Shown one piece after another: positions 39,488 to 64,000 of a stretch of 64,000 nucleotides of DNA. The notes beneath the pieces were generated by a model, which saw only the letters and a program-made list of their open reading frames with translations, was not told the origin of the DNA and made no database searches. Source of the stretch: Flavobacterium sp. N502536 (GTDB lineage Bacteria > Bacteroidota > Bacteroidia > Flavobacteriales > Flavobacteriaceae); the NCBI RefSeq assembly GCF_025947345.1, contig NZ_CP110011.1:992001-1056000 (forward strand), given 5' to 3'. The position numbers were made by a program, and so were the translations under genes. How positions within the stretch are numbered: position 1 is the first letter of the stretch; each line of letters begins with the position of its first letter.

Positions 39488-40135
39488 TTAAAATCGTAAT
39501 TCCTCTAGTTCTTTAATAATTTTACCTGGTATTCCAACAATTAGACAATTGTCAGGAACGTCTTTAGTAACAACAGCACCTGCGCCAACAACGACATTTT
39601 TACCTATTCTGACTTTAGGTAAAACAGTTGCATTAGTTCCTAAAACAGTATAGTCACCAAGGACACAATTTCCGGATATATTCACTCCTGGGGATAATTC
39701 TACAAATTCACCTATAATACAATCATGGCCGATTGTACAATTTAAATTTATTAAAGAACCTTTTTTAACAATAACATCAGCTGTGATTACCGTTCCGGTC
39801 ATGATGTTGGACCCTACTCCAATTTCATTACCAAAATTACCAATAACAGCAAGTGGACTGATTGTAGAAGTAAAAACACCACCTAACGCCGTAAATTTAT
39901 CATAAAGCTGTTTTCTTAATACTGGATTACCAATTCCTATTGTAAACCTGTTATCTATGGTCGTAAAATATGTAGCTGCATCGTGAAGAGTTTTTAAAAC
40001 GGGAAATTTATTAAATAAAAATCCATTTATATCATCATTCACATCATCATAAAACGCCAAGTTATCCGTTTGATTTAATTGATGTACTACTTCCAGAACT
40101 TCTTTTGCAAAACCTTTAGCTCCTATAATTAACAT
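39488..40135 (-). CDS. NeuD/PglD/VioB-family sugar O/N-acyltransferase
   Basis: A 215-residue left-handed beta-helix acyltransferase with an N-terminal Rossmann-like domain (MLIIGAKGFAKEVLEVV). Hexapeptide repeats run from about residue 90. IGHDCIIGEFVELSPGVNI carries the probable catalytic His; the coenzyme A end is VVVGAGAVVTKDVPDN. Family members acetylate the 4-amino group of UDP-bacillosamine precursors (PglD) or dTDP-Qui4N (VioB). It overlaps the aminotransferase upstream by 7 nt, which points to a 4-acetamido-4,6-dideoxyhexose product. Confidence 0.87.
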   Translation of the reverse strand: MLIIGAKGFAKEVLEVVHQLNQTDNLAFYDDVNDDINGFLFNKFPVLKTLHDAATYFTTIDNRFTIGIGNPVLRKQLYDKFTALGGVFTSTISPLAVIGNFGNEIGVGSNIMTGTVITADVIVKKGSLINLNCTIGHDCIIGEFVELSPGVNISGNCVLGDYTVLGTNATVLPKVRIGKNVVVGAGAVVTKDVPDNCLIVGIPGKIIKELEELRF

Positions 40136-41205: not shown

Positions 41206-41206
41206 A

Positions 41207-42448
41207 TTATTTTTGGGCTATTTCATTCTGTAACAAAGAAATCCTTGGTTTCATCTGGATTTCATTAGAATAAACTTTAAGAAATTTTTGCTGACCATTT
41301 TGAGAAATAGAATATAATTTTTCAGGGTTTTCAATTAAATCGATAATATGATTCCTAATAGAATCAGAATTACTATCTATCAAAATTAAATCTACATTTG
41401 GAATAAAAGTACTATTCTGTTTAAGTTCATCAGTAATTAAAACCGTAACACCATTTAAAGCCGCTTCGACAACCGTACCTAACGGAAATCCATCGAACGC
41501 GCCCTTACTTAATACAAATGCTTTATTTGGAGAAATCAACACATCCATATTTTGATAAATGACACCTAAAGTTTCAAAATTTTGATATCCGTAAAACTTT
41601 ATTTTTCCTTTAAGTTTTGAAACGTCAATATCATTTTCATCAAAACCTCCAATGATGTGAAAATTTATAAAATCATATTTATCAACTATGGTTTTGGCAA
41701 ACTCTATAAATACATCGTAACCTTTATCTTCTCCTTTTGGGCTGTATTTAGCCGCGCAAAAACAAATATCGAATGTCAACTTATTCACTAAATAAGTTTT
41801 TTTATTTGTTAGATCTTTATTTAAGGATATTTGCGGGACAACCCCTCCAAAAATAAATTCTATTTTCTGCGAACTACAAAAGTTTTTCTCAATTAAATAA
41901 TTCTGGGTTATTTTTTGAGTTGTGATAACTTTACGAAATAACGGCGATTCAAGAACTTTTTTTAATTTTTCATCACTTATCGTGTTATCTAATTGAAATC
42001 CTCCTCCAGGATACAAAGTAAAAGCAAACGGAATTTTGTATTTCTCTAACCACCATAAATTTTTATAAATATTATTTAGGAAAACACAATAAAACAAGTT
42101 TGTATTTATATTGACCAATTTCTTTTTACGTACTATTTTCTTTTTTAATGATACGTTTTGCAATATAAATTCCGAAATGTGTTTTTGATGGTTTTCAATT
42201 GGAGTATTTACAATCGCATATGATGTTGGTTCGACTATAATTTTAGATTTTTTAAAATGCTTTAATAGTACCGTAAATTCTTCATACCTAAAACCAGATA
42301 TCGGATGCGGAAATATATCATCAAAAATTAATAGATCAGTATTCTTCAAACCCTTATAAAACATATAATCATCACTACAAAAGCTTCTTGCAATCGAAAA
42401 AACATTCTGCACTTTATTTTTAATAATTTGAATAATATCCACTATCAT
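41207..42448 (-). CDS. Putative GT-B glycosyltransferase
   Basis: A 413-residue protein. The C-terminal half has ICFCAAKYSPKGEDKGYDVF, FYGYQNFETLGVIYQ, and SKGAFDGFPLGTVVEAALNG, whose E motif follows the GT4 donor pattern. The N-terminal half is divergent (LLIFDDIFPHPISGFRYEEF). It lies 1 nt after the VioA-like gene in genomic order, overlaps wzt by 4 nt, and so is probably part of the ABC-exported glycan pathway. Donor unknown. Confidence 0.8.
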   Translation of the reverse strand: MIVDIIQIIKNKVQNVFSIARSFCSDDYMFYKGLKNTDLLIFDDIFPHPISGFRYEEFTVLLKHFKKSKIIVEPTSYAIVNTPIENHQKHISEFILQNVSLKKKIVRKKKLVNINTNLFYCVFLNNIYKNLWWLEKYKIPFAFTLYPGGGFQLDNTISDEKLKKVLESPLFRKVITTQKITQNYLIEKNFCSSQKIEFIFGGVVPQISLNKDLTNKKTYLVNKLTFDICFCAAKYSPKGEDKGYDVFIEFAKTIVDKYDFINFHIIGGFDENDIDVSKLKGKIKFYGYQNFETLGVIYQNMDVLISPNKAFVLSKGAFDGFPLGTVVEAALNGVTVLITDELKQNSTFIPNVDLILIDSNSDSIRNHIIDLIENPEKLYSISQNGQQKFLKVYSNEIQMKPRISLLQNEIAQK

Positions 42449-43731
42449 CTATTAATTTGAATATTTTCCCAATTTAAATAAGGCCTTACAACCCCTCCCC
42501 AATAACCAAAATAATCTTTCCTATGAGTTCCTTCCTCTTCCAGATCAACTGAAATTATTTTGTCAAGTTGTGCGATTATCTCAAAATTATTACCAACTAA
42601 GATTATAGTAAAGTAATATTTCCCTTTATTTAAAAGGTTCTCAGGAATTACACAAACACTTCTATAAGTTCCTTTTCCTAAAGGAACTCGTTGTAAATTA
42701 GGTGATGCTAAGACGTAAGATTCTTTATCATCAAAAATTGAAATTGAGCAATTAATTGAATGGTTATCTATAAAATTGACATACTCTATTTCCAGGCTTA
42801 TTTGATCTTCAATAAGAAAAAATGAATTATCTGATTTAAGTTTGATAGAAGTTATTCTGGCATTTAAGTTTCCAGGTGCATCTTCAATTTTCCACCCTAC
42901 ATTAGTAACACATTCATATGAATCTGAATTGTAAACATCTAAAGCTTCATTAATATTTCCCTGAAATTTAATCATCCCTTGTTCTAGAACAATTCCTCTG
43001 GTACACAATTGTTTCACTGCAGCCATATTATGGCTCACAAATAAAACAGTTCTTCCCTCACCTTTAGAAATATCCTGCATCTTTCCAATAGCCTTTTTCT
43101 GAAACTCGGCATCACCAACGGCTAAAACCTCATCAATAACCAATATTTCAGGTTCCAAAAAAGCAGCTACAGCAAAGGCTAAACGAACTGTCATTCCAGA
43201 ACTATATCTTTTTACGGGTGTGTCTATATAACGTTCACAACCTGAAAAATCAATAATTTCATCGAGCCTAGAAGAAATTTCTTTTTTAGTCATTCCAAGA
43301 ATGGCTCCATTTAAAAAAATATTTTCTCTTCCCGTCATCTCACCATTAAAACCCGTTCCTACTTCAAGAAGTGAGGCAATACGGCCACGAGATTTTATAC
43401 TACCGGTAGTTGGAGCTGTTACTTTTGACAGTATCTTTAAAAGTGTTGATTTTCCTGCTCCGTTTTTACCAATAATTCCGAGAACTTCTCCTCGCTCAAC
43501 TTCAAAACTAATGTCTTGCAAAGCCCAAACATAATCTGAATTACCTTTAGTTGAGCGGTCATTAGTATCTCCAATTTTTAAATAAGGATTCTCTTTGCCT
43601 CTTATCTTGTGCCACCATCTATTGATGTCATGACTCAAGGTCCCTGTACCTACTTGTCCTAAACGATATTGTTTAGAAACGTTTTCAGCTTTTAATATTA
43701 TATCTTTTTCCAATTGTGAATCGTGAATCAT
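42445..43731 (-). CDS. wzt: Polysaccharide ABC exporter ATPase with C-terminal glycan-binding domain (Wzt)
   Basis: A 428-residue protein. Residues 10-255 form an ABC ATPase: Walker A GKNGAGKS (88-95), TGRENIFLNG, signature YSSGMTVRLAFAVA, Walker B ILVIDEVLAVGD, and switch VSHNMAAV. The remaining 150 residues are a beta-sandwich of the Wzt-C type, which binds the modified end of the O-chain and makes the ATPase specific. The long form implies a terminal modification on the exported glycan. It is 3 nt downstream of the permease gene. Confidence 0.93.
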   Translation of the reverse strand: MIHDSQLEKDIILKAENVSKQYRLGQVGTGTLSHDINRWWHKIRGKENPYLKIGDTNDRSTKGNSDYVWALQDISFEVERGEVLGIIGKNGAGKSTLLKILSKVTAPTTGSIKSRGRIASLLEVGTGFNGEMTGRENIFLNGAILGMTKKEISSRLDEIIDFSGCERYIDTPVKRYSSGMTVRLAFAVAAFLEPEILVIDEVLAVGDAEFQKKAIGKMQDISKGEGRTVLFVSHNMAAVKQLCTRGIVLEQGMIKFQGNINEALDVYNSDSYECVTNVGWKIEDAPGNLNARITSIKLKSDNSFFLIEDQISLEIEYVNFIDNHSINCSISIFDDKESYVLASPNLQRVPLGKGTYRSVCVIPENLLNKGKYYFTIILVGNNFEIIAQLDKIISVDLEEEGTHRKDYFGYWGGVVRPYLNWENIQINR

Positions 43732-43734
43732 GAA

Positions 43735-44601
43735 TTAAACAGTATCTATAAAACTTTTCTCCGTTTTATTAAAAACCAAAAGTCCAATAAAAAATACTGT
43801 TATAGTAACAACTAAAGTATAGACTAATCCTAAAACCGAAATTCCTCCAACGTTCAATAACATAAAACGGGCGGTCTCAATAATATAAGCTAATGGATTA
43901 TATTCGACTAGCCAACCATAACTAGGTAATTTATCTTTAATAAGCTCCATAGGATACATAACTGCCGACAAGTACATCAATAATTGTATCCCAAAACCAA
44001 TTAAATGACTAAAATCTCGATATTTTGTCACCATTGCAGAGATAAGCATTCCTAAGCCCAATCCTAAAATTCCCATTATGATTATTAAAATAGGGAAAAA
44101 TAAAACTAGACTATTTAAACTCAAATCAGCTCCTTGGAAATAATAGAAAATATAAAATCCAACAAAAATCAGAAATTGAATTCCGAATTTTACAAGATTT
44201 GAAATTACAACCGATAGAGGGGTAATTATTCTCGGAAAATATACTTTCCCAAAAATAGCAGCATTCGCCTTAAAAGTATCCGACGTCCCGGTCAGGCAAG
44301 TTGTAAAATAATTCCAAACTGTTATTCCTGCCAGATTAAATAAAAATGGCGGAACCTTTCCTGTATCAATACCTGCAACATTATTAAATATTATTGTAAA
44401 GGTTACAGAAGTAAATAATGGCTGAATGAGATACCAAAGCGGGCCTAAAACAGTTTGTTTATATACCGTGATGACATCACGTTTTACGAAAAGAAATAAT
44501 AAGTCACGATACTGCCAAACTTCTTTTAAATTTAGCGAAAAGAACTTATTCTTAGGTGTTATTTCAAACAACCAATCATTGGGGCTATTATTGTTGTTCA
44601 T
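43735..44601 (-). CDS. wzm: Polysaccharide ABC exporter permease (Wzm)
   Basis: A 288-residue membrane protein of the ABC-2 permease family with six hydrophobic spans. LKEVWQYRDLLFLFVKRDV and KQTVLGPLWYLIQPLF form the amphipathic gate helix and its follow-on, and PMELIKDKLPSYGWLVEYNPLAYII is split over the typical loop before span 5. With Wzt it moves undecaprenyl-linked glycan to the periplasm. It is the first gene after a terminator-like hairpin, so it may begin a separate transcript. Confidence 0.92.
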   Translation of the reverse strand: MNNNNSPNDWLFEITPKNKFFSLNLKEVWQYRDLLFLFVKRDVITVYKQTVLGPLWYLIQPLFTSVTFTIIFNNVAGIDTGKVPPFLFNLAGITVWNYFTTCLTGTSDTFKANAAIFGKVYFPRIITPLSVVISNLVKFGIQFLIFVGFYIFYYFQGADLSLNSLVLFFPILIIIMGILGLGLGMLISAMVTKYRDFSHLIGFGIQLLMYLSAVMYPMELIKDKLPSYGWLVEYNPLAYIIETARFMLLNVGGISVLGLVYTLVVTITVFFIGLLVFNKTEKSFIDTV

Positions 44602-44740
44602 TTTATTATTGTTAGAAACAATCTACAACTATATCATTGATAAAATTATTCCTCAAAATTTCATTACTTTTTTAAACCTCGAATAACTACACTTGTTTAA
44701 TTAACAAGATTTTTATGCTTCAAAAAACATTTTAAAAGCA

Positions 44741-44772
44741 AAAAAGGTGTTTTCTAAAAAAACACCCTTTTT
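44741..44772 (-). terminator. Terminator-like hairpin between the WbpM-like gene and wzm
   Basis: On the minus strand an imperfect stem (gggtgtttt / aaaacacc) has a short AT loop, then a run of seven T. The plus strand shows ggtgtttt at 44,746-44,753 and aaaacaccc at about 44,759-44,767. It lies after the stop of the 44,811 gene and 140 nt before wzm. No consensus promoter was found in the rest of that gap (44,602-44,740). Confidence 0.6.
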
Positions 44773-44810
44773 ATAGTATAGAATTAAACCTTAATTCAAA
44801 TATTGCGAAA

Positions 44811-46781
44811 TTACTTATCCAAAACCTCAAAAGTAGAATTCATACTTTTAAATTCAGGAACAATTTTTTTCATTTTAGCAACAATATCTTCATTATCATA
44901 AAAATCAGCTATTCCGATAAGCTCATCGATCTCGATATGCAGGTTTTCGTACTCATCTTGAATTTCCTGAGCAATCATAATCTTATTATGATAAGTTGGT
45001 AATGTTTTAGAAGTATCATTTAATAACTCTTCATAGAGTTTCTCTCCAGGTCGCAAACCAACAATTTTAATCTTTATTTCCTTATCCGGAATAAAACCTG
45101 CCAGTTTAATCATCTTTTTAGCCAAATCTATAATCTTTACAGGCTTACCCATATCAAAAATATAAATCTCACCTCCGTTACCCATTGCACCAGCTTCTAA
45201 AACTAATTGGCAAGCTTCGGGAATAGTCATAAAATAACGAATAATATCCTGATGCGTTATAGTAACCGGACCACCCTCAGCAATTTGTTTGGTAAACAAC
45301 GGGACTACTGATCCATTGGATCCTAAAACGTTTCCGAAACGCGTCGTGATAAATTTAGTAACGCTTTCCCCTCCATTTTCTCTCTGATTTTTCAAGAACA
45401 AGGATTGAACATACTTTTCAGCAATTCTTTTACTCGCTCCCATAACATTGCTAGGATTCACCGCTTTATCTGTTGAAACCATGACAAATTTTTTGACGTG
45501 ATATTTACAGGATAAATCTGCTAAGTTCTTAGTTCCTTTAATATTGGTATGAATTGCCTGTGCAGGATTTTCTTCCATTAACGGAACATGTTTGTATGCG
45601 GCTGCATGAAAAACAACATGAGGGCTATAATTTTTGAAAACTTTTTCCAGTGCTTTTTTGCTTCTTACATCCGCAATTACTGCCACTATTTTTGATTCAG
45701 AACCTAACGTCAATGTTTCCAAACACAAATTATGAAGCGGGGTTTCGGCATGATCTAAAATGACTACCATTTTAGGGTTAAAACCAAGAACCTGTCTCAC
45801 TATTTCACTACCTATAGATCCCGCTGCCCCGGTAATTAAAACGGTTTTGTCTTTTAATTGTTTAGAAATTGATTTACTATCTAAAACAATAGGTTTTCTT
45901 TCTAATAAATCTTCAATCTGAATATTTTTTACTTTTTGAGAAATTTCTTTTTGATTCTCCCAATCCGAAATCAATGGAACTGTATATACTCTATAATTGA
46001 ACTCCAAACATTGATCTACAATGATTAATTGTTCATCTTTAGATAAACTCTTATCAGCAATAATAACACCTTCGGCAGCCACAGAACGCATTAGAGCCGG
46101 CAATTTTTTTCTTAAAATCAGAATAGGCAAATCCAGCATTCTCTTAGATGCATTCTGATTGTTTTTATCTACAAAACCTACAATTTTAAATCGCGAAGGA
46201 GTTTCAAACTTCAGTGCATTAGCAACCGAAATTGCATTGGCATCTGTTCCATAAATTACTGTGCGAATTAACTTTGTGGTTGTTTTTTCAGAGAAATAAA
46301 GTTCGAATGTTTGCTTAACAATCACCCTATATAAAAACAACCCACAAAACGACAATACTAAATTGATAAAAAGAGCCGTATTTAAAAATGCTTTATGCCC
46401 TGTATATAATTCAAAAACTAAATTGAAAAATAAGAAAAACACTAAAACTGACATTTGCGAAAACAGCAATTTTATAGCATCAATATAAGAGGAGTGTCTA
46501 ATAATACCCGAATAAGTTCTAAACAACCAAAAGAAAAATATATTGGTAACAATTAAACTCGAAACAAAGAAAAACTGATGAGAAGTAACGATATAACCCA
46601 GTGCTGTACCTTCAAACAGCATATAGGTAAAAGTAAACGAGAAAATCAGTACCATTATATCTATGGCAACAATAATCCATCTCGGCAAGTAACTAAGGTT
46701 ATTAATACTCGCTCGTAAATTCCTAGGTGAGAATAAATTAAGCAATAAAGAAGCTATTTTGGTTTGTTTATCTGTATCCAA
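44811..46781 (-). CDS. Membrane-bound NDP-sugar 4,6-dehydratase (WbpM/PglF/CapD type)
   Basis: A 656-residue enzyme. Four N-terminal membrane spans (about 35-150) precede a first Rossmann domain (about 165-285) and the catalytic SDR domain from about 310 (VLITGAAGSIGSEIVRQ). The active site shows VMVSTDKAVNPSNVMGASKR: Tyr of YxxxK is replaced by Met, as in WbpM and PglF. These make UDP-4-keto-6-deoxy-GlcNAc (bacillosamine, QuiNAc and FucNAc lines). RFGNVLGSNGSVVPLF is a further family mark. It has a possible -7 box upstream. Confidence 0.93.
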   Translation of the reverse strand: MDTDKQTKIASLLLNLFSPRNLRASINNLSYLPRWIIVAIDIMVLIFSFTFTYMLFEGTALGYIVTSHQFFFVSSLIVTNIFFFWLFRTYSGIIRHSSYIDAIKLLFSQMSVLVFFLFFNLVFELYTGHKAFLNTALFINLVLSFCGLFLYRVIVKQTFELYFSEKTTTKLIRTVIYGTDANAISVANALKFETPSRFKIVGFVDKNNQNASKRMLDLPILILRKKLPALMRSVAAEGVIIADKSLSKDEQLIIVDQCLEFNYRVYTVPLISDWENQKEISQKVKNIQIEDLLERKPIVLDSKSISKQLKDKTVLITGAAGSIGSEIVRQVLGFNPKMVVILDHAETPLHNLCLETLTLGSESKIVAVIADVRSKKALEKVFKNYSPHVVFHAAAYKHVPLMEENPAQAIHTNIKGTKNLADLSCKYHVKKFVMVSTDKAVNPSNVMGASKRIAEKYVQSLFLKNQRENGGESVTKFITTRFGNVLGSNGSVVPLFTKQIAEGGPVTITHQDIIRYFMTIPEACQLVLEAGAMGNGGEIYIFDMGKPVKIIDLAKKMIKLAGFIPDKEIKIKIVGLRPGEKLYEELLNDTSKTLPTYHNKIMIAQEIQDEYENLHIEIDELIGIADFYDNEDIVAKMKKIVPEFKSMNSTFEVLDK

Positions 46782-46865: not shown

Positions 46866-47750
46866 TTAGACTTTAACACCTCTTTTCTTTTGTTTTAATA
46901 ATTCTATCAAATAAGACCCGTATCCAGATTTGACCAGAGGCTTTGCAAGTTCCTCCAATTCGGCATCATTTAAGAATCCTTGTCGCCATGCAACCTCTTC
47001 TATACAGCCAACCTTAAGCCCCTGTCTGTCCTCCAAAACCTGAACAAATTGTCCTGCCTGCATTAAACTATTAAAAGTTCCTGTATCCAACCAGGCTGTT
47101 CCTCTACTTAAGATACCTACTTTTAAAGAGTCCCTGTCCAAATAAACCTTATTTACATCCGTAATTTCATACTCTCCACGAGCACTTGGAGCAATATTCT
47201 TAGCAATTTCTACAACTGAATTATCATAAAAATACAAACCAGGAACTGCGTAATTTGATTTAGGCTCTATTGGTTTTTCTTCAATAGAAATTGCATTTAA
47301 GTCATTATCAAATTCAACAACACCATAACGTTCCGGATCAGAAACATGATAAGCAAATACAACACCTCCTTTAGGTTTTGTATTCGACTTCAAAAGATCT
47401 TGCATATTAGAGCCGAAAAAGATATTATCTCCTAGTATTAAGGCAACATCATCTTTACCTATAAATTCTTCTCCAATAACAAAAGCCTGCGCTAATCCAT
47501 TTGGGATCGCTTGTTCAGCATAGCTAAACTTACAACCTAAACTTGATCCATCACCTAATAATTTTTTAAAATTAGGCAAATCATGCGGTGTCGATATAAT
47601 TAAGATTTCATTGATTCCTGACATCATCAGGGTAGATAATGGATAATAAATCATTGGTTTGTCATAAACAGGCATCATCTGCTTACTCATTGCCAATGTT
47701 AATGGATGTAATCTTGTGCCGGAGCCTCCTGCTAAAATAATTCCTTTCAT
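46866..47750 (-). CDS. rmlA: Glucose-1-phosphate thymidylyltransferase
   Basis: A 294-residue nucleotidyltransferase that makes dTDP-glucose, first step of dTDP-L-rhamnose and other dTDP-sugars. The start [18 protein letters not shown] contains the GGSGTRL phosphate loop; [23 protein letters not shown] and [20 protein letters not shown] (in two segments) are typical. The C-terminus is of the standard long form. It is 81 nt downstream of rmlD; the gap holds a 7-bp tandem repeat. Confidence 0.96.
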
Positions 47751-47757
47751 AAATCTT

Positions 47758-47790
47758 GATTTTAGATTTTAGATTTTAGATTTTAGATTT
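47758..47790. repeat. Short tandem repeat, 7-bp unit gatttta (about 4.7 copies)
   Basis: The run gattttagattttagatttt continues to 47,790. It lies 8 bases upstream of the rmlA start codon on the minus strand, within the leader. Copy number could vary by slippage and alter the leader length. Confidence 0.85.
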
Positions 47791-47831
47791 CATTTAGCTG
47801 AAATACTATATATCAAATCTTTAAACCAAAT

Positions 47832-48677
47832 TTATATAAATATCTTTTTTAAACTTTGTTTATAATTAGGAATTTCTAAATTGTAAAGAGTTTTTATTTT
47901 TTTCTTATCTAATAATGAAAATTTCGGGCGTTTTGCAGGAGTTAGATAGGAAGAGGATGAAATCCCACCAACATTACAATTATACCCCCCTAATTCTTTT
48001 ATACTCAACGCAAATTCATACCAACTTACTTCGTCTTCATTTGAATAATTGTAAATTCCAGGAATCCAATCAGACGATTCTAAAATAACCATCATTGCTT
48101 GGGCTAAATCAGCAGCATATGTTGGTGAACCAATTTGATCATTTACAACATTTATTGTATCTCTTTCTTGCATCAATCTTTGCATCGTTTTGACAAAATT
48201 ATTCCCAAACTTACTATACACCCAAGAGGTTCGTATAATAATTGAATCTGGATTCTCTCTTAAGCACGCAATTTCTCCGGCTAATTTGCTCTCTCCATAA
48301 ACATTTATAGGATTTGTTTTTGCCTCTTCATTTAAAGCAGAAGAAGAAGACCCATCAAATACATAATCTGTTGAAATATGGATTAGTTTTACATTATTCT
48401 CGAACGTATATTTTGCAATTAATTCTACAGCTAGATTATTTATCGTAAAAGCCAGTTCTCTTTCAGTTTCTGCTTTATCAACTGCTGTATAAGCGCCGCA
48501 ATTAAAAATAATATTAGGCTTAATTTCATTTAGCTGATCATTAAGCAACTCCAAATTATCTAATGTGATTTTTGTCCGATCTGCAAAAATCCATTCAAAT
48601 TCCGGATAAGATACTGACAGAACTGAAAGTTCAGATCCTAGTTGTCCATTTGCTCCTGTAACAAGTATTTTTCTCAT
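47832..48677 (-). CDS. rmlD: dTDP-4-dehydrorhamnose reductase
   Basis: A 281-residue SDR enzyme, last step to dTDP-L-rhamnose. ILVTGANGQLGSEL is the NADPH-binding start; HISTDYVFDGSS follows, and the catalytic YxxxK is NVYGESKLAGE near residue 130. FNCGAYTAVDKAE is a strong RmlD signature. It shares one base with rmlC and precedes rmlA in the direction of transcription. rmlB, needed between RmlA and RmlC, is not in the window. Confidence 0.95.
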   Translation of the reverse strand: MRKILVTGANGQLGSELSVLSVSYPEFEWIFADRTKITLDNLELLNDQLNEIKPNIIFNCGAYTAVDKAETERELAFTINNLAVELIAKYTFENNVKLIHISTDYVFDGSSSSALNEEAKTNPINVYGESKLAGEIACLRENPDSIIIRTSWVYSKFGNNFVKTMQRLMQERDTINVVNDQIGSPTYAADLAQAMMVILESSDWIPGIYNYSNEDEVSWYEFALSIKELGGYNCNVGGISSSSYLTPAKRPKFSLLDKKKIKTLYNLEIPNYKQSLKKIFI

Positions 48678-49225
48678 TAAAATAGGCTATTACAATTCTC
48701 TATAAAAGGAAGAATCTGGTCTTTCTCAGAAACAATAGCTTCTTTTAGATTTATTCCCCAATCAATATTTAAAGAAGGATCATCAAATCTAATTCCGCCT
48801 TCAGAGACTTTATCATAAAACTGATCACATTTATACATTACGGAAGCCGTTTCGCTAATAACCGAAAAACCATGTGCAAAACCTTGCGGCACTAATAATT
48901 GCTTCTTATTTTCGGCCGACAGTAAAACACTAAATGATTTTCCATATGTGGGAGAATCTCTTCTTAAATCTACTGCTACATCAACAATTTCTCCTTCTAA
49001 AACGCGAACTAATTTGGTTTGCGAAAAAGGAGGGTTCTGGTAATGCAAGCCACGTAATGTTCCTTTTTTTGAAAATGATTGATTATCCTGAACGAAATCG
49101 ATATTTATTCCTAAGTCTGCAAATTTTGCTTTACTGTAAGATTCAAAAAAGTAACCTCTTTCATCTCCAAAAACAGTTGGCTCAATAATTAATAAATCCT
49201 CTATAAAAGTTTTTTCTGATTTCAT
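48677..49225 (-). CDS. rmlC: dTDP-4-dehydrorhamnose 3,5-epimerase
   Basis: A 182-residue cupin, normal family length. ESYSKAKFADLGINIDFVQD and FSKKGTLRGLHYQNPPF carry the catalytic His in GLHYQ; LLVPQGFAHGFSVIS and the Tyr in YKCDQFYD complete the site. The C-terminal segment FDDPSLNIDWGI matches the family. It forms a compact rmlC-rmlD-rmlA run, one base overlapping rmlD. Confidence 0.95.
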   Translation of the reverse strand: MKSEKTFIEDLLIIEPTVFGDERGYFFESYSKAKFADLGINIDFVQDNQSFSKKGTLRGLHYQNPPFSQTKLVRVLEGEIVDVAVDLRRDSPTYGKSFSVLLSAENKKQLLVPQGFAHGFSVISETASVMYKCDQFYDKVSEGGIRFDDPSLNIDWGINLKEAIVSEKDQILPFIENCNSLF

Positions 49226-49250: not shown

Positions 49251-50386
49251 TTATTTAAAAAACACATCTAAAACATTCTTAATTCTTAATCTATCGTCGT
49301 CACTCAAATTAGATCCCGAAGGTAAACATAATCCTTTTTCAAATAAATTCTCTGCAATATTATTTCCATAATACGGATATTTCAAAAATATGGGTTGCAA
49401 ATGCATCGGTTTCCATAAAGCGCGGGATTCAATACCTGCATTTTTAAAAGCCAATCTTAAAGCCTCATTGCCTTTCTCCTTATCGTCAGTTTCGATTAGG
49501 ATTGTAGTTAACCAATAATTAGAAAAATAATCTTTGTTTGGTTCTTGAAAAACGGTTACCTCATCTATCTCTTGAAATATATCTTTATAAAAATTGTGTA
49601 CTTTTCTGCGTAAAACGATATTTTCTTCTAGAACTTCCATTTGCCCGCAACCAATACCGGCACATATATTACTCATTCTGTAATTATATCCTATTTCACT
49701 GTGTTGGTAATGTGATGTGTCATCCCTGGATTGAGTAGCATAAAAAATAGCCCGTTGTTTTAATTTCTCAGAAACGGTCACGAGTACGCCACCGCCAGAA
49801 GTCGTAATTATTTTATTACCATTAAAAGAAAAAATTCCAAAATCGCCAAATGTTCCACATTTTTTTCCTTTATAACTGCTCCCTAAGGCTTCTGCACTAT
49901 CTTCAATTATCGGAATTCCGTAATTTCTAGCAATTGCATGAATCTCATCTATTTTATAAGGCATTCCATATAAATGGACTGTAATAATGGCTTTAGGCTT
50001 TTTACCCTTTAAAATTCTGTCTTTAATTGCGATTTCAAGAGAATCCGGACAAATATTCCATGTGTCTAATTCACTATCCACAAAGACGGGATTGCTCCTT
50101 GATACAATATTGGATTTGCGGAGGCAGAAAATGTCATACTTTGACAAATTACTTCGTCACCAGTTTTTACTCCCAACAAAATCAATGCTAAATGAATAGC
50201 TGCAGTACCCGAATTTAAAGCGCTTATAAAAACACTATTACCCAAATAATTTTCTAACTTATTCTCAAATTCATCGACATTAGGCCCTCCAGAAGTAATC
50301 CAGGAGTCTTTGAGTGCTTTTTGAATATAATTTTCTTCAAATCCGCTTTGCTTTGGTAATGATAAAAAAATTTTTTTTTTATTCAT
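49251..50386 (-). pseudogene. DegT/DnrJ/EryC1 aminotransferase (PglE/EpsN-like), single frameshift
   Basis: Two reading frames (49,251-50,147 and 50,066-50,386) together make one aminotransferase of about 378 residues. The 5' part reads KKIFLSLPKQSGFEENYIQK ... SWITSGGPNVDEFE; the 3' part has PIIEDSAEALGSSYKG and the PLP-Lys segment FGIFSFNGNKIITTSGGG. The join falls at the GGG of 50,088-50,090 (CCC on the coding strand). Restoring one C gives AIPVFVDSELDTW in frame. The overall type resembles UDP-4-keto sugar aminotransferases of bacillosamine lines. It may be intact in the organism if the missing base is a sequencing error. Confidence 0.85.
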
Positions 50387-56018: not shown

Positions 56019-57041
56019 TCAAGCAAGTTTATTTTTGAAGTAATTCTCATTACTGTTATTATTCAAATTATCAATAATTTGAATTAACTCTTCTATGTTT
56101 GAAAAAAAAGGATCATAATTAAAAAACTCAGTAAACGATTCTAACATGTCAATTCGAGAAACTGCACAGGGTTATTATTAGCAATACACTCTAATAAGAC
56201 TCCACTAACTCTGTATCTAAAACTTTCAGGATAAGCTAAGAGTATAATATTAGACTTCAGAAATAAATAATCATAAGCTTTCTGACTTAAATAACCATTA
56301 ATTGCAATAATATTTGGCTTGTTTTTTAGCACATCATTTTTATAAACAAATAATATGCTCTCATCTTCAAGATATTTGATAAAATTACTAGATTCTATTA
56401 GTTCATTTATAAAAGCTTTATCAGAACTACTCTCAGAAGGAGAGAATATTATTTTTTATATTTTTTAAATTCTTCTATTATATAAAAATGTGAATCTTCT
56501 TTTATTTCATCATTAAATAATTTTGAGCCAGGGAGACCGTGCGGCAACATATGTATGTCATAATTCCCCTTTGCGGATAAATATTTTTTGTTTTTTCATC
56601 AAGAACAATTAACGAATTGGCTCTTAAAACCCGATTTAAAAAGAAAAATTTAGCTTTGCTTTCATACGAGTTACTTACGTTTATATGATTAATTAAATAG
56701 CTTTTAGTTATACCAGAAAATGCAAAAGATATCTCTTCAAAGCTTGAAAAAATTACAAAATCATACTTTTTAAAGTTAACAAACATTTTTATGAGGAACA
56801 ATCCATATAAATAAGCAATCCTATTAATTAATTTACCATAATCTTTTTTAAATAAAGCTTTAGGGATTGAATATATAACTTTCGATTTATCAATATCTAA
56901 TTTATCCTCATAGTCTTTAACAAAAATGAATTCCAAATCATATCCGGCTTTCGCTAAGCTTTTAATATATATATTATTAAAATTAACATGACCATTTTGC
57001 AATAAAGGATCAATGTATAAAACTCTATTGTGCTTGTTCAT
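56019..57041 (-). pseudogene. GT-B glycosyltransferase with three one-base deletions
   Basis: The frame from 57,041 is intact to about 56,590 (HNRVLYIDPLLQNGHVNFNN; FVIFSSFEEISFAFSG; ANSLIVLDEKTKN). It then needs one extra A in the runs at 56,584-56,589 and 56,452-56,457 and one base at 56,159-56,161. The repaired 3' half reads GNYDIHMLPHGLPGSKLFND, IIFSPSESSSDKAFINELIE, LKSNIILLAYPESFRYRVSG, VLLECIANNNPVQFSRIDML, ending at TGA 56,019. This is a complete GT-B protein of about 340 residues. Its start overlaps the Wzy-like gene by 17 nt. Confidence 0.83.
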
Positions 57042-58467
57042 TTTTGGGTTTTAAATAAAATTCTGAACTAAAAAGAAGTAACATCGCAATAATACCAAAT
57101 TGAACATTATAATAAAATGTAAATGCTAACCATGGTATCGCCGCATATGCCATGAAGTTATGTTTGATCATTTTTGCATATTTAATAGTCAGCCTAAAAA
57201 TCAAAAAAAGTCCGACTAAGCCATTTGCCAATGGTATACTTGAAAATGAATCATGAACACCACCATATTTATTGTTACTTATCTCTACTGCTTTGTAAGC
57301 ATTTACCAAATCTAAACCAGACAGTAATTTGAAATCATCTGAAAAATAGGAGCCATATCCTTTACCAAAGAGTAAATAAACTGGATTACTAAAAAGTTCA
57401 TTAAAAATACTCATGACCTCAATGATTCGTACTCGTGGTGATTCAGGAATTAAATAAATCCCATCAAATCCCTGGAAAACATTTATTAATAATGTAACAT
57501 TCTCTAATTTATATAAAAATAAATTATACTCCGAATCTTCAATGTATGAAGCAAACTTAATAACTACAAATATTAAAATTGGAATCATTGCAAAACGAAG
57601 TGCACGTTTTCGCTTAGCGATATTTATACCGGTTGTATGTTTATTAAAAGCTGTCAATAAAAACATTATTAAAACAACCCCCATAAATATGATCCCTTTT
57701 CCTCCCATTCCTCCATCCATTAGAAAAAAACCGGTTAATAAGAACGAAAATAAAGGCAAAAAATAATTTTTTAAATGATAGTATGCAAATATTAAAGCCA
57801 TACTAAAATAAACCGCTTCTATAATTATTGACACATCGTCTGTTCCGTATTGAGATGAAAATCCTAGTATGTAAACAATTAATGCGGCTATTGGTGCCGC
57901 GATCATCACCTCTAACAACATCTTATATAATTTACCAACAAATGAATAAAAAGGCATTCTAATTAAAACAAATGCAGTAAAAAATAACGTTAAAATATAA
58001 GAAGTATATAATACAAAATACTCAATATAATATCCTAAAAATATTAAGCCAAACATTCCAAGCAGAATTCCGGATACTCCAATAAATATTATAGTTTTAT
58101 AAAGCGAATAGAAAACAGAATTGATTGGAACCTGAACCTTTAATCGTAATGTTCGTATAAAAAAACTAAACATGATTAGATGATAAATGCCAATGGGCCC
58201 AATAAGTTTTAATTTGGAATAATTGAAAAGTCCATAATGACTATCTTCAGGATTAGTTATCTGTGAAAATGGTATAGCGAGACATGTTATTGTAAAAACG
58301 ATATGAAAAAAAAATGCTTTCTCCGTATTCCCTCTAGAAATAAAATAAACTACAGCTATTATTTCAGGAAAAGATACTAAAATACCTGTTATTTTTTCAT
58401 GCGTCAATGAATTCCCAATAATTAATAGTATATACAAAAATACATTTCTATACGAAAATTCACTCAT
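57025..58467 (-). CDS. O-antigen polymerase candidate (Wzy-like)
   Basis: A 480-residue polytopic membrane protein with about 11-12 spans. No strict family motif, but it has a long periplasmic loop (about 330-405) containing LLFGKGYGSYFS and SNNKYGGVHDSFSSIPLANG; the G-K-G-Y-G / H-(D/N)-S arrangement is typical of Wzy and WaaL proteins. Wedged between glycosyltransferases and close to the flippase, it is the best Wzy candidate. It overlaps both neighbours (17 nt and 4 nt) and is intact. Confidence 0.75.
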   Translation of the reverse strand: MSEFSYRNVFLYILLIIGNSLTHEKITGILVSFPEIIAVVYFISRGNTEKAFFFHIVFTITCLAIPFSQITNPEDSHYGLFNYSKLKLIGPIGIYHLIMFSFFIRTLRLKVQVPINSVFYSLYKTIIFIGVSGILLGMFGLIFLGYYIEYFVLYTSYILTLFFTAFVLIRMPFYSFVGKLYKMLLEVMIAAPIAALIVYILGFSSQYGTDDVSIIIEAVYFSMALIFAYYHLKNYFLPLFSFLLTGFFLMDGGMGGKGIIFMGVVLIMFLLTAFNKHTTGINIAKRKRALRFAMIPILIFVVIKFASYIEDSEYNLFLYKLENVTLLINVFQGFDGIYLIPESPRVRIIEVMSIFNELFSNPVYLLFGKGYGSYFSDDFKLLSGLDLVNAYKAVEISNNKYGGVHDSFSSIPLANGLVGLFLIFRLTIKYAKMIKHNFMAYAAIPWLAFTFYYNVQFGIIAMLLLFSSEFYLKPKNEQAQ

Positions 58468-59616
58468 GAGTTAATTTTAAAATTCTTTTCTAGAACTGTT
58501 AACACTTCATCGTGCTTCACATTCTGAAAAACTTTTACAGGTAGCATTTTAAATTTATACTTGATTTTTTGCACAATAAACCCTGCTATTTTTTTGCAAA
58601 GCTCTATTCCAAAGACCAAATAATTTAAAGGATTATATCTACAATATTTCAAAATGTAATTTAAAATTTTAGGCTCTAAGAATGGTTCGTACACCAACAT
58701 TGCAGCATACAATGCAATTAAATTTAATTTCTTATTAATGCCATAGGCTTTTAAAACTTCACTTGTTGTTTGAGGATAAATTGTCTTTTCAGACCATATT
58801 CTTGGAATAAGTGGATTCCAATTATTCTTAATTTCTGGTCTAAGAAATGGCAACTTATCTACATCTCCAAAATGTTTTTTTAATGCTGTCCAACCTCCGC
58901 CACTATTTTTTGAAGCACCAAAAATACTTACTGGATAATTTAAATGATAATATTCTTCAATATTTATAGCTAAAGATACTGCAAAATCAATATCTGGGCA
59001 AGATCCCACTATATATCTACCTATTCTAGATTGTAATTTATCAAGTTCAGATCTTAATACTATTCCATGATAAAATCGAGGTAGCATGTCATAGGCCATA
59101 GCCCCTTTTGATAGGGTTTTATTTAGCTCAAACATTGGGTCAAGCTTCGTAAACTCAAGCTTTTCGTATGCATCTGGCAGCCAGAGATTACACGATTTAT
59201 GATAGTAATTTTCCTTTGAAATATTACAGACTCCCACCAGTACGAGCCGGGATTATATATTAAACATTTTATAGATCTATTATCTACTATATCAACAATT
59301 TCAAGTATATCCGGGCAGATAAAATCATCATCTCCAATAAAAACTAGATATTTACCTACTGAATTAATTATAGCTAATTCTGTATTATCAGCAATAGGAA
59401 TAGATTCTTTATTATAAAAATATTTTATTTGTTGATTATTTTTTTTAGAAAGATATTGTAAACAAAGTTCGTTATTATCGGAGTTATCTTGTACAATTAC
59501 TTCGTAAGTATATTCTTTACTTAAATTATCTACAATTGAATCTAAAACAGGTAAAAGGGTTGAATACCTATTTTAGTAGGTATAATTATAGAAAGTAAAA
59601 TTTTATGCTTCTCCAT
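58464..59616 (-). pseudogene. GT2 glycosyltransferase with two one-base deletions
   Basis: The open 257-residue frame at 58,464-59,237 is only the C-terminal part (CPDIDFAVSLAINIEEYYHL, PVSIFGASKNSGGGWTALKK). Upstream, other frames give MEKHKILLSIIIPTKNR, LPVLDSIVDNLSKEYTYEVI, VQDNSDNNELC and YLVFIGDDDFICPDILEIV, the N-terminal GT2 domain with its DDD metal site. Joining needs one base in the TTTT at 59,571-59,574 and one in the CCC at 59,233-59,235. The ATG at 59,614-59,616 overlaps the repaired flippase end by 14 nt. Repaired length is about 384. Confidence 0.85.
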
Positions 59617-61089
59617 TATTTATTAATTGTCTTGTATTTATCTTATATTCTGGATTCATTTTATTGAAGACCATTAGGTTCACGGCTAAAGAAATAAGCC
59701 CAATAATTGTAGAATACAAAAACACAAAATATCCTTTTTGCAAATTGATTGTTAAAATATAACCTATAGTACCAACTAAGACTGTTACTAATAAGGGAAT
59801 TACTGTACCATTTATTAACCATCTCCTAAACTCATTTTTAAAAATTTGGAAATTATAAAATACCCCAAATAAAAGTAAGCAAACACATTCATTATAAGCC
59901 ATGTATAAGTAGCGCCGATTAACCCGTATTGCTTAACAAAAAAGATTAGGGCCGGAATTATACAAATTACTGCCACGATACCTAACGTCACATTTGTCCT
60001 TGTATGACCATTTGCGATTGCAAGATAATATGGCATATACTGAAAAGATAAGAATACCGAACCAACTAAAAGTACTTTTGCAACATTTTCAATTTTACTA
60101 GCAATGATAATATCATGGGTCCAAATAAAAAGAAAATCTTTAGTAAAAAGAAACAATAACATCCCTCCTGTAGTTGCTAAAGTTGATAATATAAAAGTAT
60201 TTACATGAAATAGCTTTGTAATTTTATCTTTTTCAATATTTTCAGTATATTTCACCATTCTTGGTAATATAGCCACTGCAATAGGGGTAATTATTAATTC
60301 CGGTATTTGTGAAAGAATACCAGCAAGAGCATAATAACCAAATTCTTTTAATGATAATAATTTACTTATCACTAATTTATCAATTTGAGTGTTAAGAGAA
60401 GATATTATAGCCATTAACATCATTCCTCCGGCAAAACGTCCAACAGTTTTTAAAACATTCTTGTCAAACTTATACCTTAAATTAGTCTTAATATATTTCC
60501 ATAAGTTAAATCTTGCAATAAAAAAAAAGATAATATTTATTGAAACCTGCCATATAAAAAAAGTCAATAAGGTAGGGTAAAAATAAAGAGGTATAAGGAC
60601 AACTCCTGAACGGAAGAAACTACTCGCAACTTGAATTCCATTAGATAAAACTTGTTTCTCTAATCCAAGTAAACCACTAATTTGTAAAGTGGTAAATAGC
60701 TGAAAAGCAATACTCACTCCCATTAAACTTACGTATGTAGATAAATCGCTACTAGAAAGAATTTGGGAATTCAACCAATTCTCTGCAATAAGATTTGAAA
60801 AGCAAAAAACAAAAAGTATTATAAATAAACAAATGGCCATATACACCTTTTCAATTGTAAAAAGCATATTCCCAATATATTGTTTATCCTCATTTCTCGC
60901 AATTTCTCTATTAAGGGTCGCTGATAGTCCCCCATCTGCAAAATACATGATTGTTAAAATTACTGTATAGAAATTAATTACAGCATAAGACTCAATCCCT
61001 AATAATTTTATATAAAATGGAATAAAAACAAAGACAGATATAATTCCCCAAACTTTACCAACATAATTGGCTATTATGTTTTTAAACAT
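59603..61089 (-). pseudogene. wzx: Wzx-type polysaccharide flippase, single frameshift near the C-terminus
   Basis: The main frame (59,815-61,089) gives 424 residues with about 12 spans of the MATE/MVF-like flippase fold: MFKNIIANYVGKVWGIISVF, FADGGLSATLNREIARNED and LILEFGYYALAGIL-like KEFGYYALAGILSQIPEL. It ends in a false tail (MSLGDG). One extra A in the run at 59,835-59,839 joins it to the frame 59,603-59,902 (KNEFRRWLINGTVIPLLVTV ... NMVFNKMNP-like C-terminus), restoring two more spans and about 495 residues. Wzx moves lipid-linked repeat units to the periplasm. Confidence 0.86.
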
Positions 61090-61138: not shown

Positions 61139-61867
61139 CTACTGAATTGAATATCCACCATCAATTACGAAACTTTGCCCTGTAATCCACCTTGAATTTT
61201 TAGATATGAGAAATAAAATAGTAGGTACTACATCTTCAACTTCACCAAAACCTAATGGATGCATATTTTCAATTTCCTTAATTTGATCGTCATTTATTTG
61301 ACTGAACAGCTTTTTAGTCATCGGAGTATTAATAATTCCAGGTAAAACTGCATTAATTCTTATTTTTCTCTTTGCAAATTCTAAAGCTCCTGATTTAACA
61401 ACTCCTAATACCGCTGCCTTCGTTGCACAATACCCAATTTTCCCAGGTTGTCCTAATATCCCCATTACTGATGACAAAAAAACAATACCCGCACCATCAT
61501 TACAGTATTTCTTTTTTGTGAAATGTCTTAATAATTCAATTCCCGAAAAAACATTTACATCAAATATATTTCTAACCTTACTTGTAGAATATAAAGACAA
61601 AGGAAGTGTTTCTTCAACTCCGGCACAGTGTACTAATGCATCAAATTTTTGATTTTCTAAATTAAATTTTGAAAACAACTCATCAATTTGGTCTACTTGA
61701 TTAAAGTCAAAGTTAAAGTTGAAAATCTGCGACTTATAATTTTGTATAAAAAAATCTATTTTTGAAAAATCTCTTCCAATAGCATATACTGTATGTCCAT
61801 CTGCAATCAACTGCTTTAATGTTTCGAAACCGATACCAGAAGTTGCTCCTGTTAGTAGTATAATCAT
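61139..61867 (-). CDS. Short-chain dehydrogenase/reductase (FabG-like)
   Basis: A 242-residue SDR enzyme. ILLTGATSGIGFETLKQL is the cofactor loop; ALVHCAGVEE is the NNAG-like motif; the catalytic Ser is in FLSSVMGILGQPGK and the YxxxK is GYCATKAAVLG. RINAVLPGIINTPMT and the end GQSFVIDGGYSIQ are standard. Directly next to an ACP and a KASIII, it probably reduces a 3-ketoacyl-ACP to 3-hydroxyacyl-ACP. It is 17 nt from the ACP gene. Confidence 0.88.
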   Translation of the reverse strand: MIILLTGATSGIGFETLKQLIADGHTVYAIGRDFSKIDFFIQNYKSQIFNFNFDFNQVDQIDELFSKFNLENQKFDALVHCAGVEETLPLSLYSTSKVRNIFDVNVFSGIELLRHFTKKKYCNDGAGIVFLSSVMGILGQPGKIGYCATKAAVLGVVKSGALEFAKRKIRINAVLPGIINTPMTKKLFSQINDDQIKEIENMHPLGFGEVEDVVPTILFLISKNSRWITGQSFVIDGGYSIQ

Positions 61868-61884
61868 TTTTTCAAACCCTATTT

Positions 61885-62115
61885 CTAGTTAAATTTATCT
61901 AAGCCAATTCTTTCCATTAAAGAATTTACTGTTGTTATACTTTCTATATCATCTGAATTCAAAGTCACAGAAAATTCTTCATTTACTAAACCAATTAAAA
62001 CCATTGCCGTCATAGAATCCCAGTCATCTAAGTCTTTAATATTGGTTTCACCATTTATTTCTGTTTCAAGTTCTAAATCTTCTTCTAATCTTAAAAAAAA
62101 ATGCTTTTTATTCAT
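61885..62115 (-). CDS. Acyl carrier protein
   Basis: A 76-residue acidic helical protein. The 4'-phosphopantetheine attachment Ser is S34 in DDWDSMTAMVLIG; housekeeping ACPs have DSLD at this place, so DSMT marks a specialised carrier. DDIESITTVNSLMERIG is helix III and IV. It lies between the KASIII (12 nt) and the SDR (17 nt), which implies a self-contained acyl synthesis line. Confidence 0.88.
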   Translation of the reverse strand: MNKKHFFLRLEEDLELETEINGETNIKDLDDWDSMTAMVLIGLVNEEFSVTLNSDDIESITTVNSLMERIGLDKFN

Positions 62116-62126
62116 CGTATATATTG

Positions 62127-63134
62127 TTACAAATTACTATCTATTGTTATTAAACCTCCTGCCCAAGATAATCCTACACCAAAGCCAACAATTGCTATAT
62201 TTTGATTTTTGAATTCCGAATCCTCTGAATACTTTTTGAGTGCAATTGGTATTGTACAGGAAACTGTATTTCCTCCATCCTCCAAATTTACATAAAATCT
62301 TTCACTGTCAATTTTGAGTCTTTTACGCATAAAATTTAACATAAATGAATTTGCTTGATGAAAAACAAATTGATTTACATCATTGATTTCTTTTTTATTT
62401 TTTGCCAAAACTTCTTTAGTGAAACCAGGAATAACTTCACTTGTAAAGTTAAAAACTTCGGGGCCGTTCATATACAAATGATTGTCCGTGTAAATATTAT
62501 TTGAACCATAGTTAATTTCTTTTGCTTCATTATTAAATGGAGCATTACTACATCCATTTTTCACAATTAACTTGTCATATCCCGAACCATCTGTTCCAAA
62601 TAAGAATTCTCCAATATGTTCTACATCTGAAAAAGAAATCAATGTTGCAGTAGCTGCATCTCCAAAAATAGCTCTGTTTGAACGATCATCTGGATGCAGA
62701 TATTTAGAATATGTTTCAGCTGTAACCAGTAAAATATTCTTTGCTTGACCTGAATTTATTAATCCTTTTGCCATACTAACTCCATAAACATACCCAGAAC
62801 AACCTAAATTAAAATCAAGGGCACCAATATCTTTTCTTAAACCTAAATGATTTTGTAAAACACAGGCTGTGGTTGGCAAAAAATATTCCGGACTTTGAGT
62901 ACAGTATAAAATATAATCAATTTCATTCTTATCTATTTTTTCAAACAATTTTTCACAAGCATTTTTTGCCAGATCAAATGCAGTTTCATTTTCAGCAACC
63001 CAATACCTATTTATTATCCCAACTTTATCCTCAAATTTTCCAAAATCATAATCTGGAAATTGATTACTTAAATCAGTATTAGTGATCTTTTGTTTAGGAA
63101 AAACATATTCTATATTCTTTATTACTGCCCCCAT
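62127..63134 (-). CDS. 3-oxoacyl-ACP synthase III-like ketosynthase (FabH family)
   Basis: A 335-residue thiolase-fold condensing enzyme. Catalytic Cys in ALDFNLGCSGYVYGVSMAKG, His in FVFHQANSFMLNFM, Asn in LEDGGNTVSCTIPIAL, and the C-terminal GFGVGLSWAGGLI. All three catalytic residues are present. FabH enzymes condense an acyl-CoA with malonyl-ACP. Its setting in a polysaccharide locus with ACP and SDR suggests synthesis of a short hydroxyacyl group rather than membrane lipid. It is 12 nt from the ACP gene. Confidence 0.92.
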   Translation of the reverse strand: MGAVIKNIEYVFPKQKITNTDLSNQFPDYDFGKFEDKVGIINRYWVAENETAFDLAKNACEKLFEKIDKNEIDYILYCTQSPEYFLPTTACVLQNHLGLRKDIGALDFNLGCSGYVYGVSMAKGLINSGQAKNILLVTAETYSKYLHPDDRSNRAIFGDAATATLISFSDVEHIGEFLFGTDGSGYDKLIVKNGCSNAPFNNEAKEINYGSNNIYTDNHLYMNGPEVFNFTSEVIPGFTKEVLAKNKKEINDVNQFVFHQANSFMLNFMRKRLKIDSERFYVNLEDGGNTVSCTIPIALKKYSEDSEFKNQNIAIVGFGVGLSWAGGLITIDSNL

Positions 63135-63191
63135 TTTTTTAGTTAAGTTCTTACTATAAGTAGATATTTATTATGACAAAAAGTAAAAAAT

Positions 63192-64000
63192 TTATTTAGA
63201 ATTAGGGATGAATCTTGCTTTGTTATTGTACAAAAACTTATAAATTGCTCTCTCGGATATCGAATTAGTTTTATTAAATGTTTTATCAAATAAATAAAAA
63301 ATACTCTGAGATAAATCAAGTGACTTAGTTTCTGATTTTGTAAAAATTACATTTTGATCTTCTTTCAAATTAAAAAGAATCAATTCACTTTTGTCTACTT
63401 CTAATGTAAAAATTTCCTCATTTAGCTCAACAAACTCATACAACCATAATTTTAGCATCTCAAACTTTTCATCTATCGTCTTTGGAAGGTAAAATTTAAC
63501 ATGCTCCATAATCTTTGCCGGACTCCCCGAATATGCTTTATCTGGCAATGTATCTTTTGTAATTACAGAATTAATTAAAGCTGTACTTCTTTTTCCAAGA
63601 ACAATTCCTGAACCAACAACACAACTGCCTACCAACCAAACATCATCATTTATGATTGTTTTTCTCTTAGCATAAAGTATACATCCTTCAATTTGTTCAC
63701 CACTTGCAACGTGTGTCCAAATTTGAGAATACATACCCACTCTTACGCCATTTCCAATTTCCAGTCCTCCCGCACCATCTAAAATTGTATTTTGTCCAAA
63801 CCAGCAATTATGTCCAATTCTCATTGAATCTTCTGGCATAATTAGCATATCATTATGAAAAACATTCCAATCTCCAACGATAAATTCACCATGAATAAAA
63901 ATTCTTGTGTTATCATTTATAATATTATTGTCTCCAATAATTGCAACTGTATCAGGATTATTTCCCAAAATTTCGATTACAACGTTTTTACCAATTCTAT
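63192..64000 (-). CDS. Left-handed beta-helix acyltransferase (partial, runs off the window)
   Basis: The frame is open to the right edge (RIGKNVVIEILGNNPDTVAI precedes the TTG at 63,968), so the true start lies beyond base 64,000. Hexapeptide repeats (VAIIGDNNIINDNTRIFIHG, IGHNCWFGQNTILDGAGG, GVRVGMYSQIWTHVASGEQI) cover the first 150 residues. A C-terminal domain of about 90 residues (KFEMLKLWLYEFVELNEEIF) is not recognised. A hexapeptide transferase beside the KASIII-ACP-SDR genes is a good candidate for moving the acyl group from ACP to an amino sugar. Confidence 0.82.
   Translation of the reverse strand, partial: RIGKNVVIEILGNNPDTVAIIGDNNIINDNTRIFIHGEFIVGDWNVFHNDMLIMPEDSMRIGHNCWFGQNTILDGAGGLEIGNGVRVGMYSQIWTHVASGEQIEGCILYAKRKTIINDDVWLVGSCVVGSGIVLGKRSTALINSVITKDTLPDKAYSGSPAKIMEHVKFYLPKTIDEKFEMLKLWLYEFVELNEEIFTLEVDKSELILFNLKEDQNVIFTKSETKSLDLSQSIFYLFDKTFNKTNSISERAIYKFLYNNKARFIPNSK

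Follow-up and report, generated by a model that had tools for sequence, protein, structure and literature searches.

The O-polysaccharide of Flavobacterium psychrophilum is described as bearing a 3,5-dihydroxyhexanoyl group on Qui2NAc4N, along with rhamnose and FucNAc, and the locus for this group encodes two 3-ketoacyl-acyl carrier protein (ACP) synthases (wfpC, wfpE) together with a single ACP, a single reductase and a homologue of PglD (PMC6519341). In the vio island of Pseudomonas syringae, one ketoacyl-ACP synthase III (KASIII; vioS), an acp, the reductase gene vioR and vioB lead to N-(3-hydroxy-1-oxobutyl) viosamine, and a vioR mutant was without the modified viosamine (PMC3927599). The gdr, qhbA and qhbB genes for UDP-QuiNAc4NHb in Acinetobacter baumannii are predicted to place acetyl or 3-hydroxybutyryl on a 4-amino sugar (PMC3628348), and Aeromonas flagellar glycan islands carry an AMP-dependent synthetase, an ACP and a reductase (PMC7874193). 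The locus described here reaches over one end of a 64,000-nucleotide stretch (the window; positions 992,001 to 1,056,000) of the one-contig 5.05 Mb genome of Flavobacterium sp. N502536, and it joins a KASIII-type ketosynthase (KAS), an ACP, a short-chain dehydrogenase/reductase (SDR) and a hexapeptide acyltransferase (AT) to the amino-sugar genes FnlA, DegT1 and DegT2. The initial annotation of the window had likened it to F. psychrophilum, whose O-antigen it described in agreement with PMC6519341. Among the titles listed by literature searches, none describes this locus.

The dedicated acyl line is of an already known kind; what is new is the AT, the sugar core, a cassette-like variation among relatives and a conserved DegT protein without the family lysine. 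With moderate confidence, we propose that the line most likely makes a C4 3-hydroxy acid, which would be placed on the 4-amino group of the FnlA-DegT1-DegT2 UDP-sugar for a Wzx/Wzy repeat unit. The genes concerned are listed below; for those past the window edge, the window number is the number in the adjoining stretch L002 plus 57,999.

63192-64000, continuing to 64064 (L002:5193-6065), minus strand: hexapeptide (LbH) acyltransferase AT, 290 aa in full (Pfam, 35-row alignment, homologues)
62127-63134, minus strand: KASIII-type ketosynthase KAS, 335 aa, Cys112-His259-Asn289
61885-62115, minus strand: dedicated ACP, 76 aa, Ser34 in DSM
61139-61867, minus strand: SDR, probable 3-ketoacyl-ACP reductase by predicted activity, 242 aa, Ser132-Tyr146-Lys150
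59815-61089, minus strand: Wzx-type flippase, 424 aa frame (relatives 495 aa), overlapped at its end by a 99-aa frame at 59603-59902
L002:8230-9252: FnlA
L002:7578-8222 and 7249-7593: DegT1, split in two overlapping frames
L002:6066-7142: DegT2

The run is on the minus strand, and its order of transcription is RmlB-like, SLBB/Wza-like, Wzz-like, FnlA, DegT1 (two frames), DegT2, AT, KAS, ACP, SDR and Wzx; gene names outside the hidden Markov model tests were assigned by eye from sequence and family knowledge. The AT gene runs 64 bp beyond the window edge, and the AT-KAS, KAS-ACP and ACP-SDR spacings are 57, 11 and 17 bp. Pfam matches were obtained to ACP_syn_III and ACP_syn_III_C for the KAS, PP-binding for the ACP, adh_short_C2 for the SDR and Hexapep for the AT. 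The SDR also carries TGxxxGIG and Asn105, and we take the residues listed for KAS, ACP and SDR to be catalytic, as in their families. Judged by sequence, the locus KAS and ACP are distinct from the housekeeping FabH and AcpP. The ACP falls clearly under the NCBIfam ACP cut-off (23.6 vs 66 bits), and the KAS falls clearly under the FabH model cut-off (211 vs 292) and narrowly under that of the KAS3 subfamily (245 vs 249), which its F. psychrophilum relative P0117 just exceeds (252.9). The other KASIII proteins of the genome (the FabH-type L145, beside rpmF- and accBC-like genes, L146 and L147) all score over NCBIfam cut-offs, as does the AcpP-like protein L144, and the four paralogues of the locus KAS in the genome share 30-32% identity with it. 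When the genome was queried with the second ketosynthase of a related locus (L029), nothing above 32% identity was found, and the best match was the locus KAS itself. Residues, Pfam matches, gaps and missed housekeeping cut-offs together bear out the initial annotation in its claim of a complete KASIII, a non-housekeeping ACP and an intact SDR in one run beside a hexapeptide acyltransferase. It was also right to place amino-sugar and rhamnose genes here, with FnlA-DegT1-DegT2 before AT and RmlA, RmlD and RmlC in the window.

Like the vio island, the locus has one KASIII, one ACP and one probable 3-oxoacyl-ACP reductase, and its single KASIII with Cys-His-Asn adjoins the ACP and reductase as in a vio-type line. 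The island further has an N-acyltransferase and a sugar aminotransferase (vioA); here the hexapeptide AT is adjacent, and DegT1 is split in this genome but whole in L025, L027 and L113. The island serves a dTDP-sugar for flagellin, whereas the genes here probably make a UDP-sugar (FnlA-DegT1-DegT2), stand in a locus that contains Wzx and include an extra DegT without the lysine. The R1-group genes wfpC, wfpD, wfpE, wfpF and wfpG of F. psychrophilum likewise form a dedicated set of ketosynthase, ACP, reductase and acyltransferase genes within an O-antigen locus that contains rhamnose; however, they include two ketosynthases and a PglD homologue, where the window has one ketosynthase and a different hexapeptide enzyme. 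The pair of different ketoacyl-ACP synthases typical of the R1 group is accordingly not present in this locus. For the A. baumannii genes, the accessible text names no dedicated KAS-ACP-SDR line and compares the dehydratase with WbpM (PMC3628348).

In the proposed pathway, in which substrates, acylated position, sugar configuration and every enzyme activity are predictions, KASIII would condense acetyl-CoA with malonyl-ACP to acetoacetyl-ACP on the dedicated ACP, and the SDR would reduce this to 3-hydroxybutanoyl-ACP. FnlA, as a CapE/FnlA-like dehydratase/5-epimerase, would act with DegT1 and DegT2 to convert UDP-GlcNAc to UDP-2-acetamido-4-amino-2,4,6-trideoxy-hexose, AT would acylate this sugar at its 4-amino group, and the product would enter a Wzx/Wzy-type repeat unit. 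C4 is the better guess for the chain length, and still a guess, because there is one ketosynthase in this locus and no orthologue of the second in the genome, and the one-KASIII vio line leads to 3-hydroxybutanoyl while the two-ketosynthase line of F. psychrophilum leads to dihydroxyhexanoyl. The initial annotation had proposed a short 3-hydroxy- or 3,5-dihydroxyacyl chain on an amino sugar; the 3-hydroxyacyl form is retained as the best reading, and the dihydroxyacyl form is considered unlikely in view of the single ketosynthase of the locus and the lack of an orthologue of the second in the genome.

CapE/FnlA and AtmS13/CalS13 are the closest solved sequence relatives of FnlA, DegT1 and DegT2. 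The best solved matches of FnlA are 4j2o (464 bits), recorded as a UDP-GlcNAc 4,6-dehydratase/5-epimerase and presumably the FnlA of A. baumannii, and CapE (455 bits); the DegT1 of L025 is closest to 4zwv, which is AtmS13 (259 bits). The reaction of CapE was used to predict the product, which by this analogy is likely a 4-amino-2-acetamido-2,4,6-trideoxy-L-hexose.

DegT2 differs from AtmS13/CalS13, which have the catalytic lysine, in being without it. The pyridoxal phosphate (PLP)-lysine position is Arg183 in all 121 rows of an alignment that comprises the query and the best 120 of 2,695 hits, with identities of 68% or more (P0121 being the window's own protein, there are 119 others). As a control, 61 distinct DegT frames of 320-450 aa were taken from the fetched loci by score and length only: lysine was present in 48/48 frames assigned to DegT1, DegT3 or PglE, and arginine in 12 of the 13 assigned to DegT2; only the distant L069 (94 bits) has Lys among these. 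A further count, lysine in 10/10 rows of the DegT1 alignment, is circular, as the motif used to select these rows itself includes the lysine. The GT of the phosphate loop has become YN in DegT2 (Tyr in 119/121, Asn in 120/121), and Ser81, Cys82, Ser85, Asn86, Gln87, His126, Asn127, His128, Cys130, Asp152, Asp153 and Glu156 are invariant in all 121 rows. Of the features of a PLP aminotransferase, the fold and the family score are retained and the lysine is not: DegT2 scores 214 bits against PF01041, its predicted structure adopts the DegT fold (mean pLDDT 79, with low values at 181-187), and Foldseek gave query TM scores of 0.76-0.82 to sugar aminotransferases and dehydrases among the 50 matches listed. 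A non-PLP or partner role is likely on this sequence pattern, since a decayed copy would hardly retain an invariant pocket.

The idea that DegT1 and DegT2 pair as a heterodimer sharing a normal active site was considered and is weakened, because DegT2 is without the lysine aligned at position 236 (Gly 70, Ala 48, Ser 3 of 121 rows), which in DegT1 we take to reach across the dimer, as in the family. More tentatively, and at somewhat less than even confidence, DegT2 could represent a new sugar-locus enzyme class that has the DegT fold, has given up PLP chemistry and has kept an invariant pocket. It would act with DegT1 as a hetero-oligomer partner, or in a separate step (e.g., epimerisation) on the FnlA product, and the trio would form a fixed amino-sugar core with swapped acyl cassettes. 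No report of a sugar aminotransferase without the lysine was found in the open-licence literature with narrow search terms.

The sugar core recurs in relatives as a unit. DegT2 occurs in 12/398 genus genomes, own included (E <= 1e-90; G217 and G053 of the 12 were taken as the same genomes as L025 and L027), and FnlA, DegT1 and DegT2 are together in all 12 fetched loci, with FnlA cut by a contig end and DegT1 seven frames from DegT2 in L136, and DegT1 split in the present genome. The next gene varies. It is AT in 6/12, with the KAS line in the present genome, L113, L114 and L116 and without it in L115 and L137. In L131 a different hexapeptide enzyme, LpxD-like by eye, precedes an ACP, an AMP-ligase and an SDR, and L133 has a protein without a Pfam match and then a formyltransferase. 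L132, L134, L135 and L136 have a GNAT-like protein of 165-166 aa, scoring above the Pfam GNAT cut-off in L132, at it in L134 and below it in L135; that of L136, with no match, was assigned by length and likeness. In the DegT2 tree, L027 (KAS line) pairs with L115 (no KAS line) at support 95/91, and two changes of the acyl-cassette label are required; the FnlA tree, in which one change is possible, does not settle the matter. Inheritance of the acyl cassette together with the sugar core is not supported by the DegT2 grouping, and the pattern, in a small sample, is consistent with an acyl line that was exchanged or lost next to a retained core. DegT2 matches in plasmids comprise 36 records, every one below 60% identity.

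The KAS search scored 8,000 candidates, of which 120 were listed. The KAS is found at E <= 1e-80 in 14/199 genus genomes, own included, and its profile covered 70 loci in named genomes; the neighbourhood census left out L091, which has a broken KAS. An ACP-like frame lies near the KAS in 59/70 loci and the run FnlA-DegT1-DegT2-AT-KAS-ACP-SDR-Wzx recurs in L025, L027 (F. resistens) and L113, so the KAS-ACP adjacency is more than chance. The KAS proteins of the window and these three loci form one clade (support 97/95). A second, more distant KASIII is near the KAS in 20/70 loci (19/70 at census thresholds, L094 being the difference), and 8/70 show none of the other genes at the thresholds used. 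The arrangement of the window, AT with FnlA-DegT1-DegT2, was seen in 2/70 (L025, L027), plus L113 from the genus search. In several Flavobacterium loci, rhamnose genes adjoin a KAS-ACP-(KAS2)-SDR-PglD-DegT set, and these loci resemble the published F. psychrophilum locus in gene content.

Some of the related KAS loci are of interest in their own right. A Rieske-type oxygenase is also carried by 8/70 (by Pfam for L029); a second ketosynthase with a Rieske/ring-hydroxylating oxygenase is found at L029:11305-12390 and in L028, L030, L032-L035 and L092, as well as L117 and L118, and L035 additionally has a ferredoxin-reductase-type gene. Through the oxygenase, the acyl chain may undergo an additional oxidation. 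In many Chryseobacterium species (L047-L067, L093), KAS and ACP, mostly with an SDR, stand in a different neighbourhood with weak hexapeptide matches on the opposite strand. A one-ketosynthase KAS-ACP-SDR-PglD line in a Bacillota metagenome-assembled genome (Vallitalea, L045) suggests wide transfer.

Several points weigh against the proposed C4 pathway. A single KASIII could iterate to give C6. The SDR reaches 147.9 bits where the FabG equivalog cut-off is 297.75, and FnlA reaches 512 bits against an FnlA equivalog cut-off of 730, though FnlA is still its best model. The predicted model of AT is poor (mean pLDDT 69); a fold search with it gave 101 matches at E <= 10 and none at E <= 0.001. P0117 of F. 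psychrophilum is 75% identical to the locus KAS and adjoins its clade (95/92), so the KAS alone cannot separate C4 from C6. In the KAS tree, one- and two-ketosynthase loci are interspersed (two ketosynthases, 5 changes; one, 6), which indicates that the second ketosynthase has been both gained and lost. Finally, DegT1 is broken into two frames in this assembly, and AT stands without KAS-ACP-SDR in L115 and L137 and so need not take an ACP-bound donor.

This last point is what favours an alternative that we consider rather unlikely, namely that AT takes its acyl group from another donor (e.g., acetyl-CoA) and that KAS, ACP and SDR work for a different acyltransferase or glycan step. The two loci also led us to reject the idea that AT is invariably tied to the ACP line. 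Against the alternative, AT is directly before KAS in the present locus and in L025, L027 and L113; in these four, none of the genes from AT to Wzx was identified as a further acyltransferase. By sequence score AT is not PglD-like (28.7 bits against the NeuD/PglB/VioB model, cut-off 160.8). In a class-wide sample it was found in 1/395, the window's own, and homologues also occur in Acinetobacter and Elizabethkingia.

It is more doubtful still that the locus is non-functional and yields no modified sugar, a view compatible with the other readings. DegT1, the DegT3 of the window, Wzx and a glycosyltransferase-like gene are split or short, with overlapping or short frames at window 49251-50386, 56141-57041 and 59603-61089 and at L002:7249-8222 (two DegT genes, the glycosyltransferase-like gene and Wzx). 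Yet KAS, ACP, SDR, AT and DegT2 are all unbroken, and DegT1 is whole in L025, L027 and L113, the last with one 362-aa frame in a relative (G276) whose AT is 96% and DegT2 92% identical. A carA-like gene at L003:9809-10753 also appears short (314 aa) against the length we assume to be usual, and the split frames are likely caused by assembly indels.

The proposal of the initial annotation that two rounds on one ACP give a 3,5-dihydroxyhexanoyl group on Qui2NAc4N, as in F. psychrophilum, draws on that O-polysaccharide with its rhamnose and FucNAc, on the 75% identity of P0117 and on the rml and PglD-, PglE- and WbpM-like genes (labelled by eye) in the window, but is very unlikely, given the two ketosynthases and the PglD homologue of the published locus: here there is one ketosynthase, the genome has no orthologue of the second, and AT is far below the PglD-type cut-off and grouped with FnlA-DegT1-DegT2.

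Further genes of the surroundings are as follows.

57025-58467, minus strand: 480-aa protein with no Pfam match, in the position where L114 has a 477-aa gene and L113 a 479-aa gene; from this position, a probable Wzy polymerase
46866-49225, minus strand: RmlA, RmlD and RmlC (rhamnose), named by eye and family knowledge
L002:12935-13981, upstream of the window: RmlB-like gene, named by eye

The PglD-, PglE- and WbpM-like genes are at 39488-46781, at least about 16 kb from AT. The 34 kb past the window edge (L002, L003) hold sugar, polysaccharide-export and some metabolic genes, then ribosomal protein genes further upstream. The initial annotation had named a flexirubin, lipid or natural-product cluster beyond 64 kb as what would speak against its view; none was seen in the open reading frames of these 34 kb, read by eye. 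Two genes at window 42445-44601, for an ABC2 membrane protein and an ATPase, make up a polysaccharide exporter of the ABC type; their region is also that of the Wzx locus, which suggests two export routes side by side. Elsewhere in the genome, very long frames at 3023607-3079300 and 4988748-5046224 are rich in carrier-protein domains, and both regions are probably clusters of the non-ribosomal peptide synthetase type.

If the proposed pathway is true, gene content would predict the acyl group of a surface sugar, with the number of ketosynthases indicating the chain length, along with the Rieske oxygenase in some two-ketosynthase loci. The exchange of acyl cassettes on a constant amino-sugar core would likewise offer a simple route to new surface antigens, and the conserved DegT without the lysine poses a clear biochemical question that is testable with purified enzymes.

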